From positions 1 through 37,772 of the IMG/VR virus record IMGVR_UViG_3300008997_000099: DNA of 37,772 nucleotides; one strand, 5' to 3'. The translations under genes and the position numbers were made by a program. Positions within the stretch are counted from its first letter, which is position 1; each line of letters opens with the position of its first letter. The notes beneath the pieces are model-generated. The model worked only from the letters and a program-made list of their open reading frames with translations, was not told where the DNA came from and did not search any database. This document shows, piece after piece, positions 3,303 to 24,722 of this stretch. Source of the DNA: a virus.

Positions 3303-3845
3303 ATGAATTTAGAATTATTAAATAAGCCATTGTGTTTAGATGATATTGAGTTTAGAATTCAATCGATAAACAATGGTAAGTATGCAACTATTTTGCCTTA
3401 TAAAAATGCAAGAGTAGATATGCAAAGACTTGATGAGGCTGTAGGTGCATTATTTTGGAAACGGGAACATTCCAGAGATAATAAAAATTGCACAGTTTCA
3501 ATATGGTGTAATGATATAAATGAATGGGTTTCAAAAGAGGACACTGGAACAGAAAGTAATACAGAACAAGAAAAGGGTTTAGCTTCAGATTCTTTTAAAA
3601 GAGCTTGTTTTAACTGGGGTATTGGAAGGGAGTTATATGATTATCCGGTTATTAAAATTAAATTAAAAGACGAAGAAATTCAATCTACAGGAAAAGATAA
3701 ACCAAAATATAAAGCATCTTATGATTTTGATTTAAAAAATTGGGTATGGGGTTATGAATTCGAAAATAATAAAATTATTGCACTTGGTGCAAGAGACCAA
3801 AAAGGTAATGTTAGATTTAAATGGGGAAATTTTAAAACAAAATAA
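3303..3845 (+). CDS. Rad52-like single-strand annealing protein
   Basis: 180 residues. The stretch EWVSKEDTGTES (74-85), EKGLASDSFKRACFNWGIG (90-108) and RELY is the hallmark of phage Rad52/22-type annealing proteins (PF04098 superfamily, Sak type). These bind single-stranded DNA, anneal homologous strands and drive phage recombination and recombination-dependent replication. The SSB gene follows after two bases and the VRR-NUC nuclease precedes, giving a compact recombination module. The C-terminal 60 residues are variable and lysine-rich. A promoter-like element lies 24 bases upstream. The family call is firm; the exact subfamily is not. Confidence 0.88.
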   Translation: MNLELLNKPLCLDDIEFRIQSINNGKYATILPYKNARVDMQRLDEAVGALFWKREHSRDNKNCTVSIWCNDINEWVSKEDTGTESNTEQEKGLASDSFKRACFNWGIGRELYDYPVIKIKLKDEEIQSTGKDKPKYKASYDFDLKNWVWGYEFENNKIIALGARDQKGNVRFKWGNFKTK

Positions 3846-3847
3846 AT

Positions 3848-4207
3848 ATGAGTTACAAAGTAAGAGGTAAGATTGTTAAAATAAGTGATATTCAAGAATT
3901 TGATTCTGGATCAGCAAAATTAACTTATAGAATAGACACAGGAGAAGAATGGAATAATATTCTAGAATTCGAAATGTTTAAGAATGCTGAATATAAAGAA
4001 CAATTATCTAAATTTATTGAATATAATAATGTTGGAGACAAGGTTGAGGTTGAATTTAAACTAAAGTCTAATCATTGGGTAAAAGATGATAAAGATAAGG
4101 TATTTATTGGGCTTACTTCATGGAGAGTTGAAAAATTAACTGAGACGCAATTAAGTCAAGAGAATACTTCGGTAAACAATGATGAAGATAATGATTTACC
4201 TTTTTAA
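3848..4207 (+). CDS. Single-stranded DNA-binding protein (DUF3127-like)
   Basis: 119 residues, OB-fold-like beta-rich body (residues 1-95) and a flexible acidic tail ending in DEDNDLPF (112-119). The acidic, Pro-Phe-terminated tail is the protein-docking tip of bacterial-type SSBs. The body resembles the DUF3127 family, SSB-like proteins common in Bacteroidota and their phages. It would coat single-stranded DNA during replication and work with the Rad52-like protein directly upstream. A 13-residue peptide ending in a similar tail is encoded at 14239. Confidence 0.82.
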   Translation: MSYKVRGKIVKISDIQEFDSGSAKLTYRIDTGEEWNNILEFEMFKNAEYKEQLSKFIEYNNVGDKVEVEFKLKSNHWVKDDKDKVFIGLTSWRVEKLTETQLSQENTSVNNDEDNDLPF

Positions 4208-4209
4208 TT

Positions 4210-4392
4210 ATGAAAGTTTACACAATTGTTAATTGTTATAGCGGTGAAATTATTGAAGTAACCGCTATATATTACGAAATAGATAAATTTCAACATAACT
4301 TTTATAAAGATGAAAACGGTAATATTCTGGAATCATCTTACAATACAAGAAATTGGGATATAAGAAAAGTAAAAAATAATGGAAGAAATTAA
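4210..4392 (+). CDS. Small hypothetical protein
   Basis: 60 residues, starting two bases after the SSB stop and overlapping the next gene by 14 bases. It begins MKVYTIVNCYSGEIIEV and has no membrane segment or recognised motif. The tight coupling with the SSB and the following gene shows it is part of the replication operon. Function unknown. Confidence 0.6.
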   Translation: MKVYTIVNCYSGEIIEVTAIYYEIDKFQHNFYKDENGNILESSYNTRNWDIRKVKNNGRN

Positions 4393-4717
4393 AAACTTAG
4401 AATTTGAATTTTCTGAAATAGAATACGAAATGATTCAGGAATTTGCAGAAGAAAATAATTTGGAGATTCAAAACTATAAAAGCAAATATGGAGGAAATGA
4501 AGCAATAAAGTATTTTATTAAAACATCTGAATTAGTTGAATTTGAAATTAATTCATTTGGAGACATAGAAAGCCGGTGGATAAGCGCAAAAATTAAAAGA
4601 GATAACACTAAGATCGACTCATTATATAACACAGTAGACCTAAAAAACTACTTAATTAGACTTAAAAAAACAATTAAAAATGGCTGGGCGGAAGAAGATC
4701 AAAGTAAATCAAAATAA
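4379..4717 (+). CDS. Hypothetical acidic protein of the replication operon
   Basis: 112 residues, starting inside the end of the previous gene and overlapping the next gene by 38 bases. Strongly charged: acidic N-terminal half (EFSEIEYEMIQEFAEENN) and lysine-rich C-terminus. No domain recognised. Overlaps at both ends indicate translational coupling. A structural mimic or small regulator is possible but unsupported. Confidence 0.6.
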   Translation: MEEIKNLEFEFSEIEYEMIQEFAEENNLEIQNYKSKYGGNEAIKYFIKTSELVEFEINSFGDIESRWISAKIKRDNTKIDSLYNTVDLKNYLIRLKKTIKNGWAEEDQSKSK

Positions 4718-8233: not shown

Positions 8234-8265
8234 AACGTTGAATCTATGGGTAGAAATTGCCCGAA
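8234..8265 (+). repeat. Cassette-type half-site
   Basis: AAC-GTTGA then ATCTATGGG, matching the left part of the palindromic sites (AAC, 5-nt spacer, stem). A weak partner (CCC...ATAAAT) follows, but no closing GTTR is present. I read it as a truncated or decayed site. Confidence 0.45.
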
Positions 8266-8280
8266 TAAATACATATAAAG

Positions 8281-8613
8281 ATGATTGAATATAAATACCA
8301 AAAAGTAAAAGGATTGAGTGAAAAGAAGTTCTTAGAGGATGGACACACTATGTTTGAAGAGGATGTACTACAACGCTTGAAAAGACTTGCATACCTTGAA
8401 GAACAGATAAAGCAAGGGCAATTATTACCTATAGCTAATATTAGCCAACGTATATTGTCTGATTATACTGATTGGTTAAATGAGCAAGACCTAACAGTAA
8501 ATAAAATAAAAACACACGGAGGTTTCAGAAAGTGGTTTGGGCTAGGATGGTTAAATAAAAAAGTAAGCTCAGAAGATTTAGTAAAAAAGTTTTTATCTGA
8601 ATATGGTGTCTAA
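8281..8613 (+). CDS. Hypothetical cassette protein
   Basis: 110 residues. Helical N-terminal part with KRLAYLEEQIKQGQLLP, a coiled-coil-like segment also common in small phage proteins, and a lysine-rich C-terminus. Flanked by cassette-type sites on both sides (half-site at 8234, palindrome at 8629). Function unknown. Confidence 0.55.
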   Translation: MIEYKYQKVKGLSEKKFLEDGHTMFEEDVLQRLKRLAYLEEQIKQGQLLPIANISQRILSDYTDWLNEQDLTVNKIKTHGGFRKWFGLGWLNKKVSSEDLVKKFLSEYGV

Positions 8614-8628
8614 AGCCAGTATATCCGC

Positions 8629-8680
8629 AACGAGTTACGAGTGGCGTGAAGCGATAGCGAAATGCACTATACAGTGTGTT
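8629..8680 (+). repeat. attC-like palindromic site 1 (weak)
   Basis: AAC (8629-8631), short spacer, TACGAGTG arm, a 21-base loop region, then CACTATA arm and GTTG (8678-8681). Its right arm and the following 40 bases (GTTGTGCTTAGTACGG...ATTAAC-GATAAA) are homologous to the site at 13515 and its downstream leader, although pairing inside this copy is poorer. Confidence 0.5.
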
Positions 8681-8717
8681 GTGCTTAGTACGGGATTAAC
8701 TGATAAACTTTAATAGA

Positions 8718-8969
8718 ATGACAGAATTAGAATTAAAAGCATTTATAAGGCATAACGAGCCAGAGACTAGATACACAAAAGACCATTGCTTCATATGGAT
8801 TCACGGAAGCGACTTAAAAGAGTGGTCTGATTTAATTGAAGATATGCTTGATGAAGGAGGGCATGATTGCACGCTTGTAAGTGATGGGAGTGTATGGTTT
8901 GATTTAGGTCATATTTGCGATTACCAAAACATCGACATAAGCAAAATACTAGAACTAGAAGAGTATTAA
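8718..8969 (+). CDS. Hypothetical acidic cassette protein
   Basis: 83 residues, strongly acidic (isoelectric point clearly low), with the N-terminus MTELELKAFIRHNEPETRYT and histidine/tryptophan pairs CFIWIHGSDLKEWSDL. No known domain recognised. Its leader is homologous to the leader of the gene at 13609, so both were probably captured from related cassettes. Acidic small proteins are common among phage anti-host factors, but that is only a guess here. Confidence 0.55.
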   Translation: MTELELKAFIRHNEPETRYTKDHCFIWIHGSDLKEWSDLIEDMLDEGGHDCTLVSDGSVWFDLGHICDYQNIDISKILELEEY

Positions 8970-8973
8970 GCAC

Positions 8974-9021
8974 AACGCTAAGTATATGAGCCTGTACTTG
9001 TATGGCTTATATACATTGTTA
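8974..9021 (+). repeat. attC-like palindromic site 2
   Basis: AAC (8974-8976), spacer GCTAA, stem GTATATGAGCC (8982-8992), 11-nt loop, stem GGCTTATATAC (9004-9014), spacer ATT, GTTA (9018-9021). Eleven base pairs with one G-T. The same arms recur at 11971 and 12055. It lies between the 8718 gene and the methyltransferase. Confidence 0.8.
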
Positions 9022-9042
9022 CCAACTTTTAAAAAATGAATT

Positions 9043-9717
9043 ATGTACAGAAGTAAAATAGAATTACACAACGTTGATTGTTTGCTTTTTATGAAGCAAT
9101 GCGAGGACAATCAATTTGATTTAGCAATAGTTGACCCGCCTTACGGATTAGGAATACATAAAATGAACTATACACAAAGCACAAAAGGAGGCGTTGCTAA
9201 ACGCAGAGATTACAGTAGTGTTACTGATTGGGATAGTGCCATACCAACAAAAGAGTATTTTGATGAACTGCAACGCATAAGTAAAAATCAAATTGTGTGG
9301 GGTGGCAATTATTTTACGGAAATATTACCACCAACTAAAGGGTGGATTCTTTGGGATAAAAGAACTGAAGAAAAATACAACAATGATTTTGCTGATGGTG
9401 AAATGGCGTGGACAAGTTTTGACAAACCTTTAAGGATTTACAGATACTTATGGAGTGGAATGTTGCAAGGAAATATGAAAGATAAGCAACAAAGAATCCA
9501 CCCGACTGAAAAGCCAAAACAACTTTATAAATGGATATTAGATAATTATGCAGAAAAAGGTAGTAAAATAATTGACACTTATTTGGGGAGCGGAAGCATT
9601 GCCTTAGCTTGTGATGAACTAAAATACGATTTAGTGGGTATTGAAATTAGTAAAGAATATTTTGATAAGGCAAACAAAAGACTTGACATTGCAAGGAGGC
9701 AACAAAGCCTTTTTTAA
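9043..9717 (+). CDS. Orphan DNA methyltransferase (N6-adenine/N4-cytosine, beta class order)
   Basis: 224 residues, complete N6_N4_Mtase domain (PF01555 type). The catalytic motif DPPY is at residues 31-34, HPTEKP at 153-158, and the AdoMet-binding motif TYLGSGS at 179-185 with the acidic E201 of VGIEI. The order catalytic motif, then target recognition region, then AdoMet motif is that of beta-class enzymes. It would methylate an adenine or cytosine amino group in a short DNA site. No restriction enzyme is nearby, so protection of phage DNA from host restriction is the likely role. The gene is enclosed by two attC-like sites, that is, carried as one cassette. DPPY does not by itself decide between adenine and cytosine. 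Confidence 0.9.
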   Translation: MYRSKIELHNVDCLLFMKQCEDNQFDLAIVDPPYGLGIHKMNYTQSTKGGVAKRRDYSSVTDWDSAIPTKEYFDELQRISKNQIVWGGNYFTEILPPTKGWILWDKRTEEKYNNDFADGEMAWTSFDKPLRIYRYLWSGMLQGNMKDKQQRIHPTEKPKQLYKWILDNYAEKGSKIIDTYLGSGSIALACDELKYDLVGIEISKEYFDKANKRLDIARRQQSLF

Positions 9718-9724
9718 TTGTTGG

Positions 9725-9776
9725 TAATGCTAAAGCCCAAATAACAGCCGTTTTAATGGCTTGTTATATTATGTTA
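9725..9776 (+). repeat. attC-like palindromic site 3 (divergent)
   Basis: Inner palindrome ATAACAGCC (9741-9749), loop, GGCTTGTTAT (9758-9767), closed by GTTA at 9773-9776; the outer left box reads TAATG instead of TAACG. The loop segment CGTTTTAATG (9749-9758) is shared with three other sites. Confidence 0.6.
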
Positions 9777-9799
9777 TACTCTTTTAAACAAAACAAATT

Positions 9800-9997
9800 A
9801 TGAAAGACTTATTTAAAGCATCAGTAAAAAGTAACGCAAAGATTGAACTATTAGAACCTAACTATGAAGGTATAGCTAAAGTTTTATCTGAGTTTGAAAA
9901 ATTATACAAGGTTTGTGACAACAAAGAACTACTAGATACGTGCCTAGAGAACTTTTGCATACCTAAACACTTGATTAAACACGATAATTGTGGCTAA
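9800..9997 (+). CDS. Small hypothetical cassette protein
   Basis: 65 residues with three cysteines (VCDNKEL, DTCLENFC). The stop TAA (9995-9997) is followed by C, so it forms the TAAC box of the next site. No domain recognised. Soluble, helical. Cassette cargo of unknown function. Confidence 0.55.
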   Translation: MKDLFKASVKSNAKIELLEPNYEGIAKVLSEFEKLYKVCDNKELLDTCLENFCIPKHLIKHDNCG

Positions 9998-10017
9998 CGC
10001 TGTTGTAATACTTGTTG
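9996..10017 (+). repeat. Minimal attC-like site 4
   Basis: AACGCTG...CTTGTTG: AAC at 9996-9998 overlaps the stop codon and GTTG closes at 10014-10017, with almost no stem between. Probably a deletion form of a full site. Confidence 0.4.
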
Positions 10018-10036
10018 CGACTTAAAAAATAAAGAT

Positions 10037-10276
10037 ATGATAACTAAAGAAGAGTATGAAGAGGCTCAAGAAATAGTATGGGACTATGAAGAGCAATTGA
10101 AATTACAAAATGTTAGCCAATGTGCTAATGCTACTGTAATTGATTTAATAGGCATGACACCGCAAGGGAATCAAGTACAATATAGTTTACAAAGACAGCT
10201 ACAAGAGTTAAGAATAGCGGCAACAAAGCTAGGTCTGTATGATGCAGCCGACTTTATAAAACCGCATTGTGGCTAA
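10037..10276 (+). CDS. Small hypothetical cassette protein
   Basis: 79 residues. Glutamine-rich helical protein (EEYEEAQEIVWDYEEQLKLQ, then QVQYSLQRQLQELRIAATKL). The C-terminus HCG and the stop TAA run into the next palindromic site, where TAA supplies the first bases of the AAC box. No domain recognised. Confidence 0.55.
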   Translation: MITKEEYEEAQEIVWDYEEQLKLQNVSQCANATVIDLIGMTPQGNQVQYSLQRQLQELRIAATKLGLYDAADFIKPHCG

Positions 10277-10320
10277 CGTTGAGTACATAAGGGCGTTTTA
10301 ATGCCTTATGTACAGTGTTA
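10275..10320 (+). repeat. attC-like palindromic site 5 (best-formed)
   Basis: AAC (10275-10277), spacer GTTGA, perfect 10-bp stem GTACATAAGG (10283-10292) with CCTTATGTAC (10304-10313), 11-nt loop GCGTTTTAATG, spacer AGT, GTTA (10317-10320). The 5-nt against 3-nt spacers leave an unpaired centre between the box and the stem, as in attC. Confidence 0.85.
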
Positions 10321-10342
10321 TAGCAAGTTTTAAATTAAAAAT

Positions 10343-10597
10343 ATGAAGATAAATAAAACAATACCAAAAGATAAAAGTAGTTACGTTTATTATGCAGATA
10401 AAGGGCGTGATTTAATTGCAACAAAACCGCTTTTAATTATTTACAAATTAACTGAAGATGAAGTTAGTTTTAGAAGAGGACAGTATGTACACTCACAAAG
10501 AGAGTGGTTAGATTGGGAGTCTTTTCAAATAACAGAAGATGAGTTTATAGGATGGGTAGATATAAGTAATGAATTAGATTTACCTAATTTGCTATAA
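10343..10597 (+). CDS. Small hypothetical cassette protein
   Basis: 84 residues, beta-prone N-terminus (SSYVYYADKGRDLIATKPLL) and tryptophan-rich middle (REWLDWESFQI, FIGWVDI). No recognised domain. The stop TAA overlaps the TAAC of a boundary motif. It is the last gene before the endolysin operon. Confidence 0.55.
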   Translation: MKINKTIPKDKSSYVYYADKGRDLIATKPLLIIYKLTEDEVSFRRGQYVHSQREWLDWESFQITEDEFIGWVDISNELDLPNLL

Positions 10598-10627
10598 CAT
10601 CTTGCTATACGGAATAAATTATACCAA
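10595..10627 (+). repeat. Boundary motif copy 1 (GCTATACGGAAT)
   Basis: TAACATCTT then GCTATACGGAAT (10604-10615) and an AT-rich extension ending ACCAAATCAC. Copies lie at 12241, 14075 and 24675. It starts like a cassette site but has no closing GTTR arm. Here it separates the cassette run from the promoter of the endolysin operon. Confidence 0.65.
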
Positions 10628-10630
10628 ATC

Positions 10631-10661
10631 ACTTGTTTTTGTTATTAAACATGGTTATATT
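10631..10661 (+). promoter_or_regulatory. Bacteroidota-type promoter of the endolysin operon
   Basis: TTGTTTTTG followed by TATATTTG (10654-10661), the -7 TAnnTTTG form, 25 bases before ATG 10686. The GGTTATATTTG core is identical to that before the 7595 gene. Its position decides the start of the following gene in favour of ATG 10686. Confidence 0.65.
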
Positions 10662-10685
10662 TGTTCATATAAAAATAAAAAAGCT

Positions 10686-10913
10686 ATGAAAATAAATAAA
10701 AAAGTTGATATTGTTAGAATAAAAAGCCCTGAAAAGCCGGAAGGAATAGAGTATTACGTTTGGTATTGGTACGAACATGTGATAGAAGAAGATATAAATT
10801 ATTGTGGTAAAGAATTAATATTTTTTATTGAGGATGAAAACGGGGAGGATGTAACATATGAACTTGAGGAAAATTTAAGAAATAATATTTTGGTTTCCGT
10901 TTTTGGTGAATAA
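10686..10913 (+). CDS. Hypothetical protein in the endolysin operon
   Basis: 75 residues from ATG 10686. A longer reading from 10602 would start upstream of the promoter and through the boundary motif, so it is rejected. Basic N-terminus MKINKKVDIVRIKSPEKPEG, aromatic YYVWYWYEHV, acidic C-terminal half. No domain recognised. It lies 20 bases before the endolysin gene and shares its promoter. Confidence 0.6.
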   Translation: MKINKKVDIVRIKSPEKPEGIEYYVWYWYEHVIEEDINYCGKELIFFIEDENGEDVTYELEENLRNNILVSVFGE

Positions 10914-10933
10914 TAAAATATAAAATATAAGAT

Positions 10934-11407
10934 ATGAAATTAAGTAAAAATTTAACTTGGAAAGAATTTGAATATAGCGACACAGCTATAAGATTGGGTA
11001 TATCAAATAAGGTTCCGCCAACTTTGAAAAAATCTGCTATTAATTGGGCTGAAAATATATTTCAACCAATTAGGGATCATTTTGGAGTGCCTATATATTT
11101 AAGCTCTGGATATAGAGGGGAAAGATTAAACAAAGAAATAGGAGGTAGTCCTACTAGTCAACACTATAAAGCTGAAGCTGGAGATTTAGATCAAGACTAT
11201 AGAAACACGGGTGTTTCAAATTCAGATGTATTTTATTTTATTAAAAATAATTTAGATTTTGACCAGCTTATTTGGGAATTTGGAGACAATGATAATCCTG
11301 CATGGATTCATGCTTCTTATACTTCAAAAAGAAAAAATAGGAAGCAGGTATTGATAGCTTATAAAGATGATAATGGGAGAACTAAATATAAAAAGTGGGG
11401 CAGCTAA
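10934..11407 (+). CDS. M15-family peptidase endolysin (D-Ala-D-Ala type)
   Basis: 157 residues, one peptidase M15A domain (PF08291 type). SGYRGERLNKEIGG (58-71), SQHYKAEAGDLD (75-86) and WIHASY (124-129) give the zinc ligands His77, Asp84 and His126. The enzyme cuts peptide cross-links of peptidoglycan in the periplasm to release progeny. No signal peptide is visible, so it needs a holin; the holin-like genes are at 2035-2758. It has the usual length for phage M15 endolysins. Its placement between accessory cassettes rather than next to the holins is unusual. The stop codon overlaps a TAAC half-site. Confidence 0.9.
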   Translation: MKLSKNLTWKEFEYSDTAIRLGISNKVPPTLKKSAINWAENIFQPIRDHFGVPIYLSSGYRGERLNKEIGGSPTSQHYKAEAGDLDQDYRNTGVSNSDVFYFIKNNLDFDQLIWEFGDNDNPAWIHASYTSKRKNRKQVLIAYKDDNGRTKYKKWGS

Positions 11408-11455
11408 CGGATGAGTCTATAAGTATTTGCCTAAAAAGACTACATTAACAAAACA
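11406..11455 (+). repeat. Cassette-type half-site after the endolysin
   Basis: AACGGATGAGTCT with a distant AGACT partner (11436-11440 region) and TTAAC instead of GTTR. AAC overlaps the endolysin stop codon. Only weak pairing; read as a decayed site. Confidence 0.4.
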
Positions 11456-11464
11456 GCTATACAA

Positions 11465-11680
11465 ATGAGCGAAATAGATTACAAATATGAAGCAGAGCAA
11501 GGTGCTATCTACTGTAAATTTTTGGTTGACATTGTTAAAAGTGATACATCTGGAGATGTTTTTATATGTGGGGAAGATGACTTCGAGCCACAAGAATTTA
11601 AAACAGAGGAAGAGGCTATATGTTGGATTGCAAGAAGAGAATGGGGTATATACACTATAACTAAAATTTATTGTAGATAA
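11465..11680 (+). CDS. Small acidic cassette protein
   Basis: 71 residues, acidic, beginning MSEIDYKYEAEQGAIYCKFL; a WIARREWGIYTITKIYC segment closes it. No domain recognised. The stop TAA (11678-11680) forms the TAAC box of the following site. Confidence 0.55.
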   Translation: MSEIDYKYEAEQGAIYCKFLVDIVKSDTSGDVFICGEDDFEPQEFKTEEEAICWIARREWGIYTITKIYCR

Positions 11681-11799
11681 CGCTTAGTGTATGAATCGTT
11701 GCGGGATTTTAAATAAAAAAAATAAGTATAATATGTTTGATTTTAATAAAGCAGATAAAACAGGAGACAGAAGTAGCAATGATTTATCACACATTGTTA
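11679..11799 (+). repeat. attC-like site 6 with an expanded loop containing a gene start
   Basis: AAC (11679-11681), spacer GCTTA, arm GTGTATGAATCGTTGC (11687-11702); 73-nt loop; arm GCAATGATTTATCACAC (11776-11792), spacer ATT, GTTA (11796-11799). The arms pair at about 14 of 16 positions. The start of the next gene (ATG 11733) lies in the loop and the gene reads through the right arm. Confidence 0.7.
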
Positions 11800-11963
11800 C
11801 CAAACGTTGTTCTAATTTTGAACACGTTTTAATTAATTGTGATGACCAAGTAACAGTAAGAGAATTATTAAAAGAATTAGTACCGATTAATATTCAAATA
11901 GAGATAACTGAAAGATTTAATCAAGAATATGCAAAAAGGCAGATTGCCCGTAATGGTTGGTAA
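11733..11963 (+). CDS. Small cassette protein read through a palindromic arm
   Basis: 76 residues from ATG 11733; the longer reading from ATG 11691 would begin in the left arm of the palindrome and is less likely. Residues about 15-24 (NDLSHIVTKR) are encoded by the right arm of site 6. The rest (LLKELVPINIQIEITERFNQ and a basic C-terminus) has no recognised domain. Stop TAA lies in TAAC of the next site. The start choice is moderately certain. Confidence 0.5.
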   Translation: MFDFNKADKTGDRSSNDLSHIVTKRCSNFEHVLINCDDQVTVRELLKELVPINIQIEITERFNQEYAKRQIARNGW

Positions 11964-12072
11964 CTGAAAAGTATATGAGCCGTTGAGCGATAAATTAATT
12001 GAAAGAACTTATATTATGAGTAAAAAACAAAAGCAAATAGAAAGCACTGACAATGGCTTATATACATTGTTA
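11962..12072 (+). repeat. attC-like site 7 with an expanded loop, same arms as site 2
   Basis: AAC (11962-11964), six-nt spacer, GTATATGAGCC (11971-11981); 73-nt loop; GGCTTATATAC (12055-12065), spacer ATT, GTTA (12069-12072). Both arms are identical to those at 8982 and 9004, where the loop is only 11 nt. Confidence 0.75.
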
Positions 12073-12243
12073 CCTACCGTTTATCCTTTGATTGATAATA
12101 AACGATGGTACGCTGAGAATGGAACAGTTTATAATGAAGCGGACGAAGATTTTAGAATCTTAATGGTTTGCGGAGAAAATAGTGAAATGAACCTACCTAA
12201 TGATGTAGCAGAAAAAATAGCTGAATATCTAAATGGTAGGTAA
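12016..12243 (+). CDS. Small cassette protein starting inside a palindrome loop
   Basis: 75 residues from ATG 12016 (an upstream TTG at 11983 is less likely). Residues 13-22 (NGLYTLLPTV) are translated from the right arm of site 7. The remainder, with YAENGTVYNEADEDFRILMV and an acidic C-terminal part, has no recognised domain. The stop TAA opens the boundary motif at 12241. The arm-encoded peptide suggests that the coding region grew through the site. Confidence 0.5.
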   Translation: MSKKQKQIESTDNGLYTLLPTVYPLIDNKRWYAENGTVYNEADEDFRILMVCGENSEMNLPNDVAEKIAEYLNGR

Positions 12244-12270
12244 CAACTAGCTATACGGAATATTAAATAA
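12241..12270 (+). repeat. Boundary motif copy 2
   Basis: TAACAACTA followed by GCTATACGGAAT (12250-12261) and TTAAATAATAA. First 21 bases identical to copy 3 at 14076-14096. This copy lies within the array rather than at its edge. Confidence 0.65.
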
Positions 12271-12277
12271 TAAAAAT

Positions 12278-12523
12278 ATGATAGAGATAAAAACAGGAAA
12301 AATTGACTATATAGTAAATTGTGATTTTGAAAAATTTGCAAATGAACTAAACAGTCCAGAAAAATTTATAACTATAACATTTTATCAAGTATACAATGAC
12401 AAAAAAGAAACTTTTTACTATAAGAAAGTGTGTTGTTTACATAAGGACGAAATAGAGGTGGTAGAGCCCTCTGTAATATATGAGTGGGATAAGATAAAGG
12501 ATAAGATACTTGTCTATGAATAG
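12278..12523 (+). CDS. Small hypothetical cassette protein
   Basis: 81 residues. Beta-prone with alternating charged residues (YQVYNDKKETFYYKKVCCLH) and two adjacent cysteines. No recognised domain. It follows boundary motif 2 by 8 bases and is followed 10 bases later by a half-site. Confidence 0.55.
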   Translation: MIEIKTGKIDYIVNCDFEKFANELNSPEKFITITFYQVYNDKKETFYYKKVCCLHKDEIEVVEPSVIYEWDKIKDKILVYE

Positions 12524-12533
12524 TATTCACTAC

Positions 12534-12558
12534 AACGTTTAATGTAAATTTTGAAGCG
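12534..12558 (+). repeat. Cassette-type half-site
   Basis: AAC-GTTTA-ATGTAAATTTTGAAGCG; the same left arm pattern AAC-GTT-A-ATGTAA-...AAGCG occurs at 13163. No closing arm. Confidence 0.45.
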
Positions 12559-12801
12559 ATGGAACAAGAAATAGAAAATATATTACTAAACAGTAGTTTA
12601 ACAGATGGTGAAGTATCAAGGCTTACAGGTGAGCTTTTGAATTTAGATATTGTTAGCGGTTGTTTTCCTACTCAAAAGGAACTAGAAGAAAAAAACGCCC
12701 TCGCTGATAGTTGGGGCAACACTTCACACCCTGATGAATGCTACAAACAAGGGTTGAAAGATATGTATGAAGCAATAGTCAAAGAACTCAATAACCGATA
12801 A
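12559..12801 (+). CDS. Small acidic cassette protein
   Basis: 80 residues, helical and acidic (MEQEIENILLNSSLTDGEVS; then ADSWGNTSHPDECYKQGLKD). No recognised domain. Its start directly follows a half-site and its stop TAA is part of TAAC of site 8. Cargo of unknown function. Confidence 0.55.
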   Translation: MEQEIENILLNSSLTDGEVSRLTGELLNLDIVSGCFPTQKELEEKNALADSWGNTSHPDECYKQGLKDMYEAIVKELNNR

Positions 12802-12852
12802 CATTGAGTATAAAAATCTGGTGAGGCACGAACTTGTTTTTATACAGTGTTA
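12800..12852 (+). repeat. attC-like palindromic site 8
   Basis: AAC (12800-12802), spacer ATTGA, perfect 9-bp stem GTATAAAAA (12808-12816) with TTTTTATAC (12837-12845), 20-nt loop containing GAGGCACGAA, spacer AGT, GTTA (12849-12852). The loop segment GAGGCACGAA recurs at 13540 in site 9. Confidence 0.8.
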
Positions 12853-12873
12853 CCCACCGTTAAAATTATAGAT

Positions 12874-13164
12874 ATGAATAAATTAAAAGAACTATTAAGT
12901 AAGTGTAAGGCGAGTGTATCAATAACTGTAAACCAACATAGAGATTATTACCAAAGTGTTGAAGAACATATCGAAGAACAAGCTTTGATTGATGAAGAGT
13001 TAATTGATGAAATTGGTAAGGAAGTGTATGAAGAAATGAAAAAGACTAATACCATTGTTGAAATACAAGCTTATCCAGACACGCCAATAGGAAGTTATAG
13101 GTTATTCCATTATGACATTGACAAAGCGATAGATATAATGCTAAGTTGTGTTAATGGTGGGTAA
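12874..13164 (+). CDS. Hypothetical cassette protein
   Basis: 96 residues from ATG 12874; a GTG nine codons upstream lies in the palindrome arm and is rejected. Helical acidic middle (VEEHIEEQALIDEELIDEIG) and a C-terminus with YDIDKAIDIMLSCVNGG. No recognised domain. Stop TAA overlaps a half-site (TAACGTTGA). Confidence 0.55.
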   Translation: MNKLKELLSKCKASVSITVNQHRDYYQSVEEHIEEQALIDEELIDEIGKEVYEEMKKTNTIVEIQAYPDTPIGSYRLFHYDIDKAIDIMLSCVNGG

Positions 13165-13190
13165 CGTTGAATGTAACAAGCGTAATTTTT
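13163..13190 (+). repeat. Cassette-type half-site
   Basis: AAC-GTTGA-ATGTAACAAGCG, overlapping the stop codon of the preceding gene; no closing GTTR arm within the following 50 bases. Confidence 0.45.
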
Positions 13191-13210
13191 AACAATTAAA
13201 TACGGATAAA

Positions 13211-13516
13211 ATGAGTGTAGATTTAAAGGATAAGTACAGAGAAGAAACAAACAAAGACGTATACAGTGAAGATAATGTATACGGTGGTAGCGGAGGTAGT
13301 TATAGTGACCAATACGTTAAATGGCTAGAGAAACAAGTTAAAAATAATGATTTGTTACATAGTGTTAGCGGTACAAGTAGAGTTGATTTAGTGGAAATGT
13401 GGCGAAATTATAGTAGTGACTTATTTGCAAAAAGGATGTTCAAAGGTGAAACACACCCAATTACAGAAGATGAGTCTTTTGAAATAATGATGAAGATACT
13501 AAATGATTACCGCTAA
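13211..13516 (+). CDS. Hypothetical phage protein carried as a cassette
   Basis: 101 residues. SYSDQYVKWLEKQV (44-57) is a motif I know from many small phage proteins of unknown function. A glycine-rich turn (YGGSGGS) precedes it. Stop TAA is in TAAC of site 9. No catalytic motif visible. Confidence 0.6.
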   Translation: MSVDLKDKYREETNKDVYSEDNVYGGSGGSYSDQYVKWLEKQVKNNDLLHSVSGTSRVDLVEMWRNYSSDLFAKRMFKGETHPITEDESFEIMMKILNDYR

Positions 13517-13569
13517 CGAGTTTGTGTATGGTGTCGTTTGAGGCACGAAAATGCACTATACATATGTTG
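13515..13569 (+). repeat. attC-like palindromic site 9
   Basis: AAC (13515-13517), spacer of 7 nt, TGTATGGTG (13525-13533), 20-nt loop with GAGGCACGAAA, CACTATACA (13554-13562), spacer TAT, GTTG (13566-13569). Eight of nine stem pairs are Watson-Crick. Right arm and downstream leader resemble site 1. Confidence 0.7.
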
Positions 13570-13608
13570 TGTGTAGTGCGGATTATTAACAGATAAAACT
13601 TAATTAAA

Positions 13609-13792
13609 ATGATTACAAAAGATTACAAAAGATTACAAAGAAGAACACGAATTAGTAAGAAAAGAATTGTGGATGAGAATAGCTTGTGCTTATGTAAATA
13701 GTAGTAATAGTACAAGTAAAGAGTACGCTTCTAAATGGGCTGACCAAGTGTTAAAAGATTTTGATGAAAGGTTCAAAAACCCAAACGAATAG
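13609..13792 (+). pseudogene. Cassette gene put out of frame by a third 10-bp repeat copy
   Basis: ATG 13609 opens a reading frame that stops after 30 codons, but from 13631 a different frame runs to TAG 13790-13792 and encodes DYKEEHELVRKELWMRIACA, then NSSNSTSKEYASKWADQVLK and FDERF, a small phage protein type I recognise (ELW...STSK..A..WAD..L..FDERF). The two frames are separated by three tandem copies of GATTACAAAA/G (13611-13640). With two copies the ATG would be in frame and give about 57 residues. So the gene is either switched off by repeat slippage, recently mutated, or a sequencing/assembly error. Site 10 follows. Confidence 0.7.
13611..13640 (+). repeat. Three tandem 10-bp repeats
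   Basis: GATTACAAAA, GATTACAAAA, GATTACAAAG directly after the AT of the start codon of the broken cassette gene. A period of 10 means that gain or loss of one copy shifts the reading frame. Confidence 0.9.
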
Positions 13793-13802
13793 CATTACAC
13801 AC

Positions 13803-13859
13803 AACGCTTGTGTATGCTCTGTATGGAGTGCAACGGAATATGGAGTATAAACCTTGTTA
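13803..13859 (+). repeat. attC-like palindromic site 10
   Basis: AAC (13803-13805), spacer GCTT, GTGTATGCTC (13810-13819), 23-nt loop, GAGTATAAAC (13843-13852), spacer CTT, GTTA (13856-13859). Eight of ten stem positions pair. Confidence 0.7.
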
Positions 13860-13873
13860 TAAGTATTTTAATT

Positions 13874-14068
13874 ATGAACACAGTATATTTTCAACCACCG
13901 GACATAAAGAAAGAATTTTGTGAAATTGGTATGATTTCAGAAACCGACCCAAATTACATTTGGTACTTAGATGAACCATGTAAAGTATTAATCAAAGATG
14001 TAAAAATAATAGACAAGGAAAACGTAACCTATGACAAAAAGAATAGGGTACATAGAGTAAAAACCTAA
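13874..14068 (+). CDS. Small hypothetical cassette protein
   Basis: 64 residues from ATG 13874; an earlier in-frame ATG (13814 and the 13808 reading) lies inside the palindrome and is rejected. Acidic N-terminal half (FQPPDIKKEFCEIGMISETD) and a lysine-rich C-terminus. No recognised domain. It is the last gene of the first accessory block. Confidence 0.55.
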   Translation: MNTVYFQPPDIKKEFCEIGMISETDPNYIWYLDEPCKVLIKDVKIIDKENVTYDKKNRVHRVKT

Positions 14069-14074
14069 TTACTT

Positions 14075-14113
14075 ATAACAACTAGCTATACGGAATATTA
14101 AATTTGATACCAC
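14075..14113 (+). repeat. Boundary motif copy 3 at the array/packaging junction
   Basis: ATAACAACTA then GCTATACGGAAT (14085-14096) and ATTAAATTTGATACC. The tail AAATTTGATAC is shared with copy 4 at 24675. It separates the cassettes from the packaging genes. Bases 14114-14238 hold only AT-rich, promoter-like sequence (TTTTTTTG with TATATATT downstream) and no supported gene. Confidence 0.65.
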
Positions 14114-14238
14114 AAAAAATATGGATAAATTCAAGGAAAAAAATAGTATTAATAAATAATAATAAATTTACGTTAAAACAATTAGTATAATTATTTATAC
14201 TTTTTTTGTCTAAAATTTATATATTAACGGTGTCTAAA

Positions 14239-23257: not shown

Positions 23258-23455
23258 ATGGAAAAACGAGCAAAACAAAATTCTTTTTTATACCGTGTTA
23301 TGCGTTGTAAGAGATTTATTTTTTTTAAAGAGAAGTATAAAGGTCATTGGACTATTGTACCAACAATACACATAGATAATGTCACAAATAAAGGTACTAC
23401 AATAGACTTTGATTTTTTACAATGGTGTTTTAGTATGCAGATTTATAACGCATAA
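23258..23455 (+). CDS. Small basic cassette protein
   Basis: 65 residues, basic and aromatic N-terminal half (MEKRAKQNSFLYRVMRCKRF, then IFFKEKYKGHW). The FLYRVMRC part is read from sequence resembling a cassette right arm. No domain recognised. Stop TAA forms the TAAC of the next site. Confidence 0.5.
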   Translation: MEKRAKQNSFLYRVMRCKRFIFFKEKYKGHWTIVPTIHIDNVTNKGTTIDFDFLQWCFSMQIYNA

Positions 23456-23533
23456 CGCTTGTGTAAATGCCGTGCAAGTGTTACAAATTAAATTAACGGC
23501 TACAAATTAAACATGGCATTTTACACCATGTTA
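23454..23533 (+). repeat. attC-like palindromic site 11
   Basis: AAC (23454-23456), spacer GCTT, GTGTAAATGCC (23461-23471), 43-nt loop with a repeated TACAAATTAAA, GGCATTTTACAC (23515-23526), spacer CAT, GTTA (23530-23533). The stem is complete apart from one bulged base. Confidence 0.75.
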
Positions 23534-23545
23534 TAAAGACTTATT

Positions 23546-23806
23546 ATGAAGTTTTACAAAACATATAATTTAAAGCCTATAATCTCAGTTGATGTAATTA
23601 GACAAGATGGTGATTACTACTATTACCAAGACACTTTTAATTACAAGAGGGAAAGAAGGTTTAAATTAAACGAGAATATAAACAATGTTGTTTATCATAA
23701 ATCATATGATGACGCTAAGATATACCTAATTAAAGAAATTGAATTAAAACTATCTGCATTAAATAGTAGTAAATTAAAGCTAGAGTCTTTACTTAATTCT
23801 TTATAA
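23546..23806 (+). CDS. Small cassette protein
   Basis: 86 residues. Beta-prone, tyrosine-rich N-terminal half (DVIRQDGDYYYYQDTFNYKR), then a helix ending KLSALNSSKLKLESLLNSL like a small coiled coil. No domain recognised. Stop TAA lies in TAACGTTGA, a half-site. Confidence 0.55.
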   Translation: MKFYKTYNLKPIISVDVIRQDGDYYYYQDTFNYKRERRFKLNENINNVVYHKSYDDAKIYLIKEIELKLSALNSSKLKLESLLNSL

Positions 23807-23848
23807 CGTTGATGATAAGGTGTCGTGGCTGCCTGAAAGTGCCTCAGA
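23805..23848 (+). repeat. Cassette-type half-site
   Basis: AAC-GTTGA-TGATAAGG followed by GTGTCGTGGCTGCC; overlaps the stop codon. No closing GTTR before the next gene at 23868. Confidence 0.45.
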
Positions 23849-23867
23849 AATTTAAATAACAAATTAA

Positions 23868-24149
23868 ATGAACAAAGAGAAAGAAAATATCCAAACCAAT
23901 AGCCATGCACCCTTATCTGGTGTTATCGGTCGTAATTTATCGAATGATGAGTTAGAGGAAGGTTTGATTTATTGGTGTAATCTCAGCAACAGAACCGTAT
24001 TGGTAACATCTGTATCACATGAGAAGTTTAAGAATCCATTTACAGGAAAAGTGACAGACTACAAGAAAGTTGATGCTCTAGCATTCTTCAATGGAGTGTA
24101 CGATACAATCCAAGTATGGGACTACATGTTAGCAGAGTATGACCGATAA
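23868..24149 (+). CDS. Phage cassette protein of a recurrent small family
   Basis: 93 residues. NLSNDELEEGLIYWCNLSNR (23-42) followed by TVLVTSV and a KVDALAFFNGVYDTIQVWDY section is a pattern I have seen in small phage proteins of unknown function, probably one compact beta domain. The stop TAA lies in TAAC of site 12. Function unknown. Confidence 0.6.
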   Translation: MNKEKENIQTNSHAPLSGVIGRNLSNDELEEGLIYWCNLSNRTVLVTSVSHEKFKNPFTGKVTDYKKVDALAFFNGVYDTIQVWDYMLAEYDR

Positions 24150-24194
24150 CGCTTAGGCTAAACGGTCGTTTTAATGCCGTTTTAGCCATTGTTA
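24148..24194 (+). repeat. attC-like palindromic site 12 (well-formed)
   Basis: AAC (24148-24150), spacer GCTTA, GGCTAAACGG (24156-24165), loop TCGTTTTAATG, CCGTTTTAGCC (24177-24187), spacer ATT, GTTA (24191-24194). The stem pairs fully except for one extra T. Resembles classical attC ends (TAACGCTT...TTGTTAG). Confidence 0.85.
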
Positions 24195-24440: not shown

Positions 24441-24655
24441 AACGGAATAGTATAAACGACTTTAAATAAATACGATATGGAAACAGTAATAACAATAAAT
24501 GTAGTAGAATGGGTTTTATACCTTGTAGTAATTTGGTTAGCACTTAGTTTAGCTGATAGCACTTTGGCTCTTTATAAGAGATACCTTGAATGGAGAATAA
24601 AAAAACTTAAAGAACGCAAAAAGTAGTATTTATTTATTGCGTTTATACCTTGTTG
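24441..24655 (+). repeat. attC-like site 13 enclosing a whole gene in its loop
   Basis: AAC (24441-24443), spacer GGAATA, perfect 9-bp arms GTATAAACG (24450-24458) and CGTTTATAC (24640-24648), spacer CTT, GTTG (24652-24655). The 181-nt loop holds the entire gene 24477-24626. A further hairpin (GTTGTGTTC, loop TCGTTTTAATG, GAATACAAC) follows at 24652-24680. Confidence 0.75.
24477..24626 (+). CDS. Single-helix membrane protein (49 aa) inside a palindrome loop
   Basis: ATG 24477 to TAG 24626, 49 residues. VVEWVLYLVVIWLALSLADS (9-28) is one membrane helix, followed by a strongly basic tail (YLEWRIKKLKERKK) that would stay in the cytoplasm. The complete gene lies between the two arms of site 13. 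Small membrane proteins of this kind can act in exclusion or lysis control, but no function is visible. Confidence 0.6.
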   Translation: METVITINVVEWVLYLVVIWLALSLADSTLALYKRYLEWRIKKLKERKK

Positions 24656-24674: not shown

Positions 24675-24714
24675 TACAACATCTCGCTATACGTAATATA
24701 AAATTTGATACTAA
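24675..24714 (+). repeat. Boundary motif copy 4 at the end of the second block
   Basis: TACAACATCTC then GCTATACGTAAT (24686-24697; one base different from the other copies) and ATAAAATTTGATACTA. The cassette run stops here and the following genes overlap without sites. Confidence 0.65.
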
Positions 24715-24722
24715 AATATAAA

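Follow-up and report, generated by a model that had tools for sequence, protein, structure and literature searches.

Palindromic sites lie between the small genes of a tailed phage of Bacteroidota, and the question is whether they form an integron-type cassette array and, if so, which unit moves. The window analysed here is the whole 37,772-nt stretch of IMG/VR record IMGVR_UViG_3300008997_000099. On the gene strand, the sites follow the plan AAC, 5 nt, stem, loop, stem, 3 nt, and GTT. R and L boxes with an imperfect palindrome are present, and the structure is more conserved than the sequence. The stem sequence varies between sites, so that the shared homology is only a few bases. The array contains around 16 sites, about 12 at 8.6–13.9 kb and four at 23.4–24.7 kb, in addition to four terminal half-sites (Table 1). 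There is one small gene per site. Approximately half of the sites have short loops, while the loops of the remainder are roughly 50–180 nt. The sites at 8234 and 8629 are degenerate. An earlier note, made from the letters alone, had described this plan and its coordinates, and both the scan below and reading of the sequence agree with it. Its 10 + 3 sites are real, although the number was too low. The array is most probably an integron-type cassette array without an integrase (CALIN), with cassettes of inverted polarity. This assignment, as an attC array already proposed in that note, is backed by the box complementarity, the stems, a covariance model from another domain of life, and the exchange of units at the core box in relatives.

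The scan score combines the L stem of each site with the complementarity of the two R boxes bounding each cassette, because complementary R'' and R' boxes within a cassette are expected of insertion as a circle. With a score of at least 40, 13 cassettes are seen on the plus strand of the window and none on the minus strand. In 60 shuffled windows the mean was 0.25 cassettes (at most 2); the rate in 13 other phage contigs was 0.44 per 38-kb strand. The R' and R'' boxes are complementary over 8–14 nt in 14 window cassettes. Their pairing score is 341, compared with a mean of 156 and a maximum of 245 in 2000 permutations.

A covariance model was built from bacterial chromosomal sites only, using eight sites of equal length with the structure given by hand. 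It matches the window at the E values in Table 1, the best four being 9.5e-6 or lower, and all matches to sites are on the minus strand, opposite the genes. Matches in other phage contigs are likewise on the strand opposite the genes; those in the bacterial loci L229 and L230 are on the gene strand. The absence of model hits, foreseen as an outcome against the proposal, did not occur. With 40 bacterial sites that varied in length, the resulting model retained only four base pairs and was discarded. An Rfam search yielded no match to any attC-like family. Since hairpins are common at gene ends and the window sites lie between small genes, terminators, attenuators or translation-control elements resembling attC can be considered. 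Such ordinary hairpins are an extremely improbable explanation, as the box complementarity, conserved spacers, coding loops and unit exchange would be left unexplained, and the unit-exchange data refute it for the site family.

Table 1. Features of the two blocks of the array. For attC and half-sites, the strand listed is the canonical one of attC, which is opposite to that of the genes. R link, R'/R'' complementarity; CM, covariance model; phase, reading-frame phase at the GTT of the site.
Feature	Coordinates	Strand	Details
Degenerate attC	8629..8680	-	R' box GTT 8678 intact; R link to R'' 8974, 14 nt, 1 mismatch
Cassette gene	8718..8969	+	83 aa; PHROG 37287, function unknown
Short attC	8974..9020	-	11-bp L stem; 5' of DNA methyltransferase gene; CM E 1.8e-8
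Cassette gene	9043..9717	+	N6/N4 DNA methyltransferase; PF01555 1.3e-18
attC	9726..9775	-	R'' mutated to AAT; R link 9018-9726, 9 nt, 1 mismatch; CM E 0.007
Coding attC	9996..10114	-	Next gene's start codon 10037 in loop; frame crosses GTT 10112, phase 0
Cassette gene	10037..10276	+	N-module MITKEEYEEAQEIVWDYEEQL encoded in own attC loop
Short attC	10275..10319	-	10-bp L stem; 5' of gene 10343-10597; CM E 1.2e-12
Terminal half-site	10596..10640	-	After last R'' box (AACATCTTGCTATACGGAATA...); R link 10317-10596, 13 nt; without L partner
Coding attC	11679..11798	-	Imperfect stem; start codon 11733 in loop; phase 0 at GTT 11796; R link 11796-11962; L stem read by eye, unscored by scan
Coding attC	11962..12071	-	15-bp L stem; start codon 12016 in loop; phase 2
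Terminal half-site	12242..12285	-	AACAACTAGCTATACGGAATATTAAA; R link 12069-12242, 14 nt, 1 mismatch
Coding attC	12534..12654	-	Start codon 12559 in loop; phase 0
Short attC	12800..12851	-	10-bp L stem; CM E 9.5e-6
Long coding attC	13163..13366	-	10-bp stem; loop ~170 nt = first 51 codons of gene 13211; phase 0
Cassette gene	13211..13516	+	N-module KDKYREETN...YVKWLEKQV common to L114 and L115; bodies there unrelated
Short attC	13515..13568	-	Scan; CM E 0.0085
Short attC	13803..13858	-	Scan; CM E 0.005
Terminal half-site	14077..14122	-	AACAACTAGCTATACGGAATATTAAATTTGATACC; R link 13856-14077
attC	23454..23532	-	R links 23297-23454 and 23530-23805, 14 nt each
Coding attC	23805..23924	-	Start codon 23868 in loop; phase 0
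Short attC	24148..24193	-	CM E 2.6e-9
Long attC	24441..24654	-	Entire 49-aa ORF (24477-24626) inside loop
Terminal half-site	24678..24722	-	AACATCTCGCTATACGTAATATAAAATTTGATAC; basis: sequence

The same site family is found in Bacteroidota chromosomes, where attC comes after the gene. This canonical polarity is not that of the phage arrays: counted by the majority within each locus, inverted polarity holds for 67 phage loci and four bacterial loci, and canonical polarity for three and 52, respectively (Fisher p about 1e-26). Among the inverted bacterial loci, only L142 has more than one scored cassette, and it is located upstream of terminase, portal and capsid genes. For gene bodies common to otherwise unrelated contigs, the identity of the upstream attC was compared with that of the downstream attC. 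In phage exchanges, the upstream attC is, for example, 100, 98, 93, 80, 88 and 79% identical, versus 22, 43, 61, 43, 20 and 27% (random) for the downstream attC, and the upstream one is the better match in 12 of 14. The same box side moves in 13 of 13 bacterial pairs (mean 95% versus 49%). Units are seen to move with junctions at the core box in contigs of related phages and in bacterial arrays alike. No recent exchange was observed for a cassette of the window itself, and the evidence on boundaries is from its relatives. In related phages, the mobile unit is thus attC plus the gene downstream of it. In L026/L083 and L078/L093 the body is kept and the attC is changed, so the 5' box is not the sole place of exchange. 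Without filtering for attC, raw DNA breakpoints are too noisy. Terminase relatives are too distant for comparing the same array among sister phages.

If the polarity were canonical, the unit would be a gene with its downstream attC, the crossover would be at GTTR of the gene strand, and genes starting in a loop would be split and rebuilt at each recombination. Loop N-modules joined at GTT to unrelated bodies, as well as methyltransferase bodies with differing leaders and attC sizes, are consistent with this. The spacer asymmetry also looks like that of canonical attC when read on the gene strand. The spacers on the canonical strand are 3 nt and 5 nt, with the extra bases on the cleaved side, and the asymmetry of VCR-type attC is the reverse of that of the Bacteroidota and phage sites here. 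The 5-nt/3-nt asymmetry was dropped as a sign of canonical orientation, as bacterial arrays show the opposite. Canonical polarity is nevertheless very unlikely, and as a main mode it is largely refuted: recent exchanges move the upstream attC, not the downstream one, and the directional bacterial model puts the canonical strand opposite the genes. The earlier note, which assumed this polarity, was right that each site follows one small gene, but the mobile partner is the downstream gene. The boundaries in relatives do fall at a box, which is AAC and not the GTTR needed by canonical polarity.

In the inverted arrangement, each mobile unit consists of an attC hairpin and the gene after it, and the crossover would occur at the AAC box, at the 5' end of attC on the gene strand, which corresponds to the GTT box (between G and TT) on the canonical strand. 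The site family and the crossover box are shared with the Bacteroidota chromosomal arrays. Recombination at the phage sites would depend on an enzyme supplied in trans, for which the array-linked XerA/IntI-like recombinase of the host is the most likely candidate, with the folded gene-sense strand as a probable substrate. The inverted polarity would separate phage and host cassette pools, and would tie each site to its own translation start.

A CALIN, unlike a complete integron, does not require an integrase in cis. Consistent with the earlier statement that the genome has no integrase, no integron integrase (IntI) in cis was found in this phage. In chromosomal arrays, a co-directional tyrosine recombinase is located ~44 nt upstream and, in most loci, ends 31–93 nt before the first box; in L230, from Tenacibaculum, its gene is at 3384-4490. 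It is without the IntI-specific insertion, having ~43 residues fewer than IntI there, and its scores of 196–228 bits fail the curated integron-integrase cut-off of 265. Its closest solved relatives are XerA-type archaeal recombinases (5hxy and 4a8e) and VchIntIA/IntI4 (2a3v), from which it differs in length by about 90 extra N-terminal residues. This recombinase was not found in 25 phage records, which contain no positive control. It is unlikely that the hairpins are instead short repeats for homologous or annealing-based recombination without a site-specific integrase. Phage genomes are mosaic, no integrase was found in the phages searched, and the swapping of attC without the body would suit such a process. 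However, stems that differ per site offer only a few bases of homology, the R'/R'' complementarity of each cassette fits insertion of a circular cassette and not homologous recombination, and the same site family adjoins a dedicated tyrosine recombinase in chromosomes.

Roughly one phage cassette in three has its start codon inside the attC loop, and the ORF then runs through the distal stem and the R' box. Such coding attC sites occur naturally in many phage contigs, and their loops would also provide the start codon and the N-terminal peptide of the cassette gene. Synthetic protein-coding attC sites have reportedly been designed (Nivina et al. 2020, as cited in PMC9892861); both they and the phage sites are embedded in coding sequence, and the phage sites are natural. 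Loop-encoded N-terminal modules of three families are found with unrelated bodies, joined at the R' box. The module from the attC at 9996..10114 is homologous to two L054 modules with unrelated bodies. Codon-position mismatches of the loop modules are 68/50/106, and different codons are used at 56 of 136 identical residues. Bodies of methyltransferases are also found in other phage arrays with different leaders and attC sizes, and the methyltransferase of the window has homologues in Bacteroidota phages. Almost all cassette proteins are unknown against Pfam and PHROGs, and a tblastn search of isolated phages with protein 13211 gave no match. Chimeric genes formed by crossover at GTT in coding loops were dropped as the main mode because L061/L074, and then the recent exchanges taken together, showed the upstream attC moving with the gene. 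It is conceivable, though rather doubtful, that Bacteroidota phages have their own integron branch, characterized by inverted cassettes, a non-IntI host recombinase in trans and loops with exchangeable N-modules, where recombination at either box moves genes or swaps N-termini. If true, either-box recombination would be natural in-frame domain shuffling by an integron.

The terminal half-sites sit at the expected end of arrays, and they resemble the region after the bacterial recombinase gene only loosely. The half-site at 14077..14122 is possibly an attI-like array end, for which this likeness is suggestive only. A viral scan with the terminal module gave no match in other viral contigs.

CALINs of virulent phages are already known (Qi et al. 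2023, PMC9892861). The shared features are integrase-less attC arrays in lytic phages, methyltransferase cargo and a Bacteroidota host. In that report, IntI1 used five of six phage sites tested, one P12002L site (P12002L_attC2) was active with IntI1, and Polaribacter phage P12002L has a CALIN of two sites of divergent direction. Upon re-examination here, P12002L has about nine linked cassettes. The earlier note was unaware of such an array in a Bacteroidota phage; P12002L precedes, with two sites called compared with the nine or so linked cassettes. No mention of inverted polarity, of coding loops or of the attC + gene unit, all seen here, was found in the available text of Qi et al. (PMC9892861). 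The literature searched yielded no description of inverted polarity, coding attC loops or the unusual integrase.

Chromosomal integrons of Treponema (PMC3607928) resemble the Bacteroidota chromosomal arrays in that the integrase is transcribed toward the array, in the same direction as the cassettes. In contrast to these integrons, the Bacteroidota recombinase lacks the IntI-specific insertion and is below the integrase cut-off, and the phage arrays have inverted genes without an integrase. In class 1 integrons, ORF-11 of attI1 (PMC8876359) similarly has a frame that spans the crossover and affects translation of the next cassette. ORF-11 is a short attI peptide ending in the first cassette, whereas the phage loop modules are 14–50 residues at the N-terminus of the cassette protein, and the supported crossover is 5' of the start codon.

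IntegronFinder 2.0 reported a single complete integron in Bacteroidetes (PMC9024848). Phages of this phylum, in which standard tools report almost no cassette arrays, commonly carry them. The array-linked recombinase, lacking the IntI insertion, makes it possible to test which parts of an integrase are required for recombination of folded DNA. Start codons in loops tie the recombination hairpin to translation, as a natural counterpart of engineered protein-coding attC. The same sites as in the host with reversed genes predict two cassette pools without useful gene exchange, and phages appear to maintain a reversed pool of exchangeable genes of their own. Since DNA methyltransferases are among the cargo, the arrays may be a fast route to change phage counter-defence genes.

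The short sites of the window match exactly the plan described in the earlier note: AAC, 5 nt, stem, loop, stem, 3 nt and GTT. Sites and cassettes were scored jointly by our own script (not HattCI or IntegronFinder), combining the L stem within the site with the complementarity of the opening R' and the closing R''. Such complementarity is required of any integron cassette inserted as a circle. Here, the cassettes form a nearly unbroken chain with R stems of 8–14 nt. At a score of at least 40, 13 cassettes are seen on the + strand and none on the − strand, against a mean of 0.25 in shuffles and 0.44 in other phage contigs. The observed box pairing is 341, while the best of 2000 permutations of the boxes reaches 245. 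The attC-like array suspected in the earlier note is real.

The + strand carries every cassette gene of the window, which is one complete IMG/VR virus record of 37,772 bases, a type of record that may be a fragment. Genes for the small and large terminase, portal, major head and tape-measure proteins are present. The small terminase gene (14533) lies directly downstream of the first block of sites, and the second block is located between the head and tail genes. An M15 peptidase, likely a lysis enzyme, is encoded at 10934–11407 between two array segments; a hairpin resembling an array site, with no GTT box, adjoins it at 11405.

The mobile unit was examined with gene bodies common to contigs with otherwise unrelated flanks. 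In phages, the upstream attC is as similar as the gene (100, 98, 93, 80, 88 and 79% identity), while the downstream attC of the same pairs is unrelated (22, 43, 61, 43, 20 and 27%). Overall, the upstream attC is the better match in 12 of 14 phage comparisons. Two phage loci, L061 and L074, share 98.6% identity from the AAC of the upstream attC to just short of the next R''. Because the upstream attC matches together with the gene, these alignments indicate that the phage mobile unit is an attC plus the gene downstream, with the crossover at the gene-strand AAC box, contrary to the canonical polarity (gene, then attC) assumed previously. The unit boundaries are those demonstrated in relatives of the window phage.

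The same sites are found by pattern scan in many Bacteroidota chromosomes, where genes run opposite to phage genes relative to the site. Classified by the majority at each locus, 67 phage loci are inverted and 3 canonical, against 4 inverted and 52 canonical loci in bacteria. Among the inverted bacterial loci, only one has more than one scored cassette; it belongs to a Winogradskyella MAG contig, has genes for terminase, portal and capsid downstream, and on this gene content is judged to be a phage or prophage. A covariance model from eight bacterial sites matches the window sites on the − strand (E 1.2e-12, 2.6e-9, 1.8e-8, 9.5e-6, 0.005, 0.007 and 0.009), and the same inversion is seen in further phage contigs, P12002L among them. 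In bacterial arrays, all 13 pairs compared have the same side of the site going with the gene (mean 95% vs 49%); some of these pairs are repeats inside one array. The same side travels in both groups, which indicates a common crossover box with opposite gene polarity.

Six window sites have long loops holding the start codon of the next gene. From there the frame runs on across the distal stem and GTT box, and five of the six do so in phase 0. The script's criterion assigns to this type 73 of the 213 cassettes from 116 phage loci plus the window, and site lengths cluster at about 41–56, 107–123 and 180–205 nt. Loop modules evolve at the protein level: mismatches per codon position are 68/50/106 and different codons are used at 56 of 136 identical residues, in seven partly non-independent pairs from three families.

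Coordinates of coding loops, terminal modules and chromosomal integrons
Feature	Location	Strand	Remark
Genes starting in an attC loop	window 10037, 11733, 12016, 12559, 13211, 23868	+	
Seventh long-loop site	window 24441–24654		loop surrounds an entire 49-aa ORF, membrane-like
Half-site module (AACAACTAGCTATACGGAATATTAAATTTGATACC)	window 10596, 12242, 14077, 24678		four conserved copies after the final R'' box, without distal arm
Flavobacterial chromosomal integrons	L230:3384–4490, L231:9044–10147, L232:4052–5182, L229, L233, L234		XerA-like recombinase without IntI insertion

Three families of loop-encoded N-modules were found: window 13211 with loci L114 and L115, window 10037 with two L054 genes, and L051 with P12002L. 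Within each family the N-modules are clearly homologous (z 9–27), while the bodies show no homology (z about −1.5 to 2), and the two parts meet at GTT. Methyltransferase bodies of 40–53% identity carry either short attC sites or 118–120-nt sites with unrelated leaders. The attC is changed and the body kept in the locus pairs L026/L083 and L078/L093. Modules shared across unrelated bodies and attC changes on kept bodies point to a second, rarer exchange type at or near R'. Slow turnover would explain these differences as well, and so would annealing recombination.

The half-site modules occupy the attI end of the array in the canonical direction, and other phages carry their own terminal modules, those of L043 and L068 resembling each other. 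Terminal half-sites are possible phage attI-like receptors. At 13609–13640, three 10-bp tandem units (GATTACAAAA) at a cassette ORF start break its reading frame; with one unit fewer, the frame is open downstream. A phase-variable switch is one possible reading, a decayed gene another. In a Tenacibaculum array (L231:6571–8813), an ORF-poor cassette of about 287 bp is present as four near-identical repeats, with its attC duplicated too. In a Tenacibaculum genome, a stretch flanked by array sites includes a type IIG restriction-modification enzyme (L232:12036–15233).

Array-bearing genomes encode tyrosine recombinases of 280–380 aa, co-directional with the array; often 31–93 nt, commonly 44, separate their stop codon from the first core box that follows. 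They score 214–238 bits with NF040815 (XerA / integron integrase; cut-off 220) and 196–228 bits with TIGR02249 (cut-off 265). The nearest solved structures are XerA proteins, followed by IntI4 (2a3v), relative to which about 43 residues are missing where the IntI insertion sits. By analogy with VchIntIA, this insertion would aid the reading of extrahelical bases. In Treponema the integrase is also co-directional with the array, like in Bacteroidota chromosomal arrays (PMC3607928). The region after the recombinase stop often contains a palindrome of about 22–26 bp followed by TTG|TT or TTG|TG (L232, L238, L246 and L252), a candidate attI.

In line with the earlier note, no integrase is found in the window by family search, and a search run without a positive control did not find the array-linked recombinase in 25 array-bearing phage records. 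Relatives at 35–37% identity, annotated as integrases, are encoded by other flavobacterial temperate phages. A host recombinase would act in trans on the phage array.

Qi et al. 2023 (PMC9892861) describe 17 phage CALINs (arrays without integrase), P12002L included, and IntI1 activity on five of six phage sites tested. IntegronFinder 2.0 reports one complete integron in Bacteroidetes (PMC9024848). Neither inverted polarity nor coding attC loops nor the present array-linked recombinase was found described in the literature searched, which included few subscription papers and no preprints.

No cassette shared between phages and bacteria with unrelated flanks was found among the loci compared, and the phage and host cassette pools would be separate. 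In phages, the gene-sense strand probably folds for recombination. It can be speculated that transcription leaves this strand single-stranded, and that this might be the reason for the inversion.
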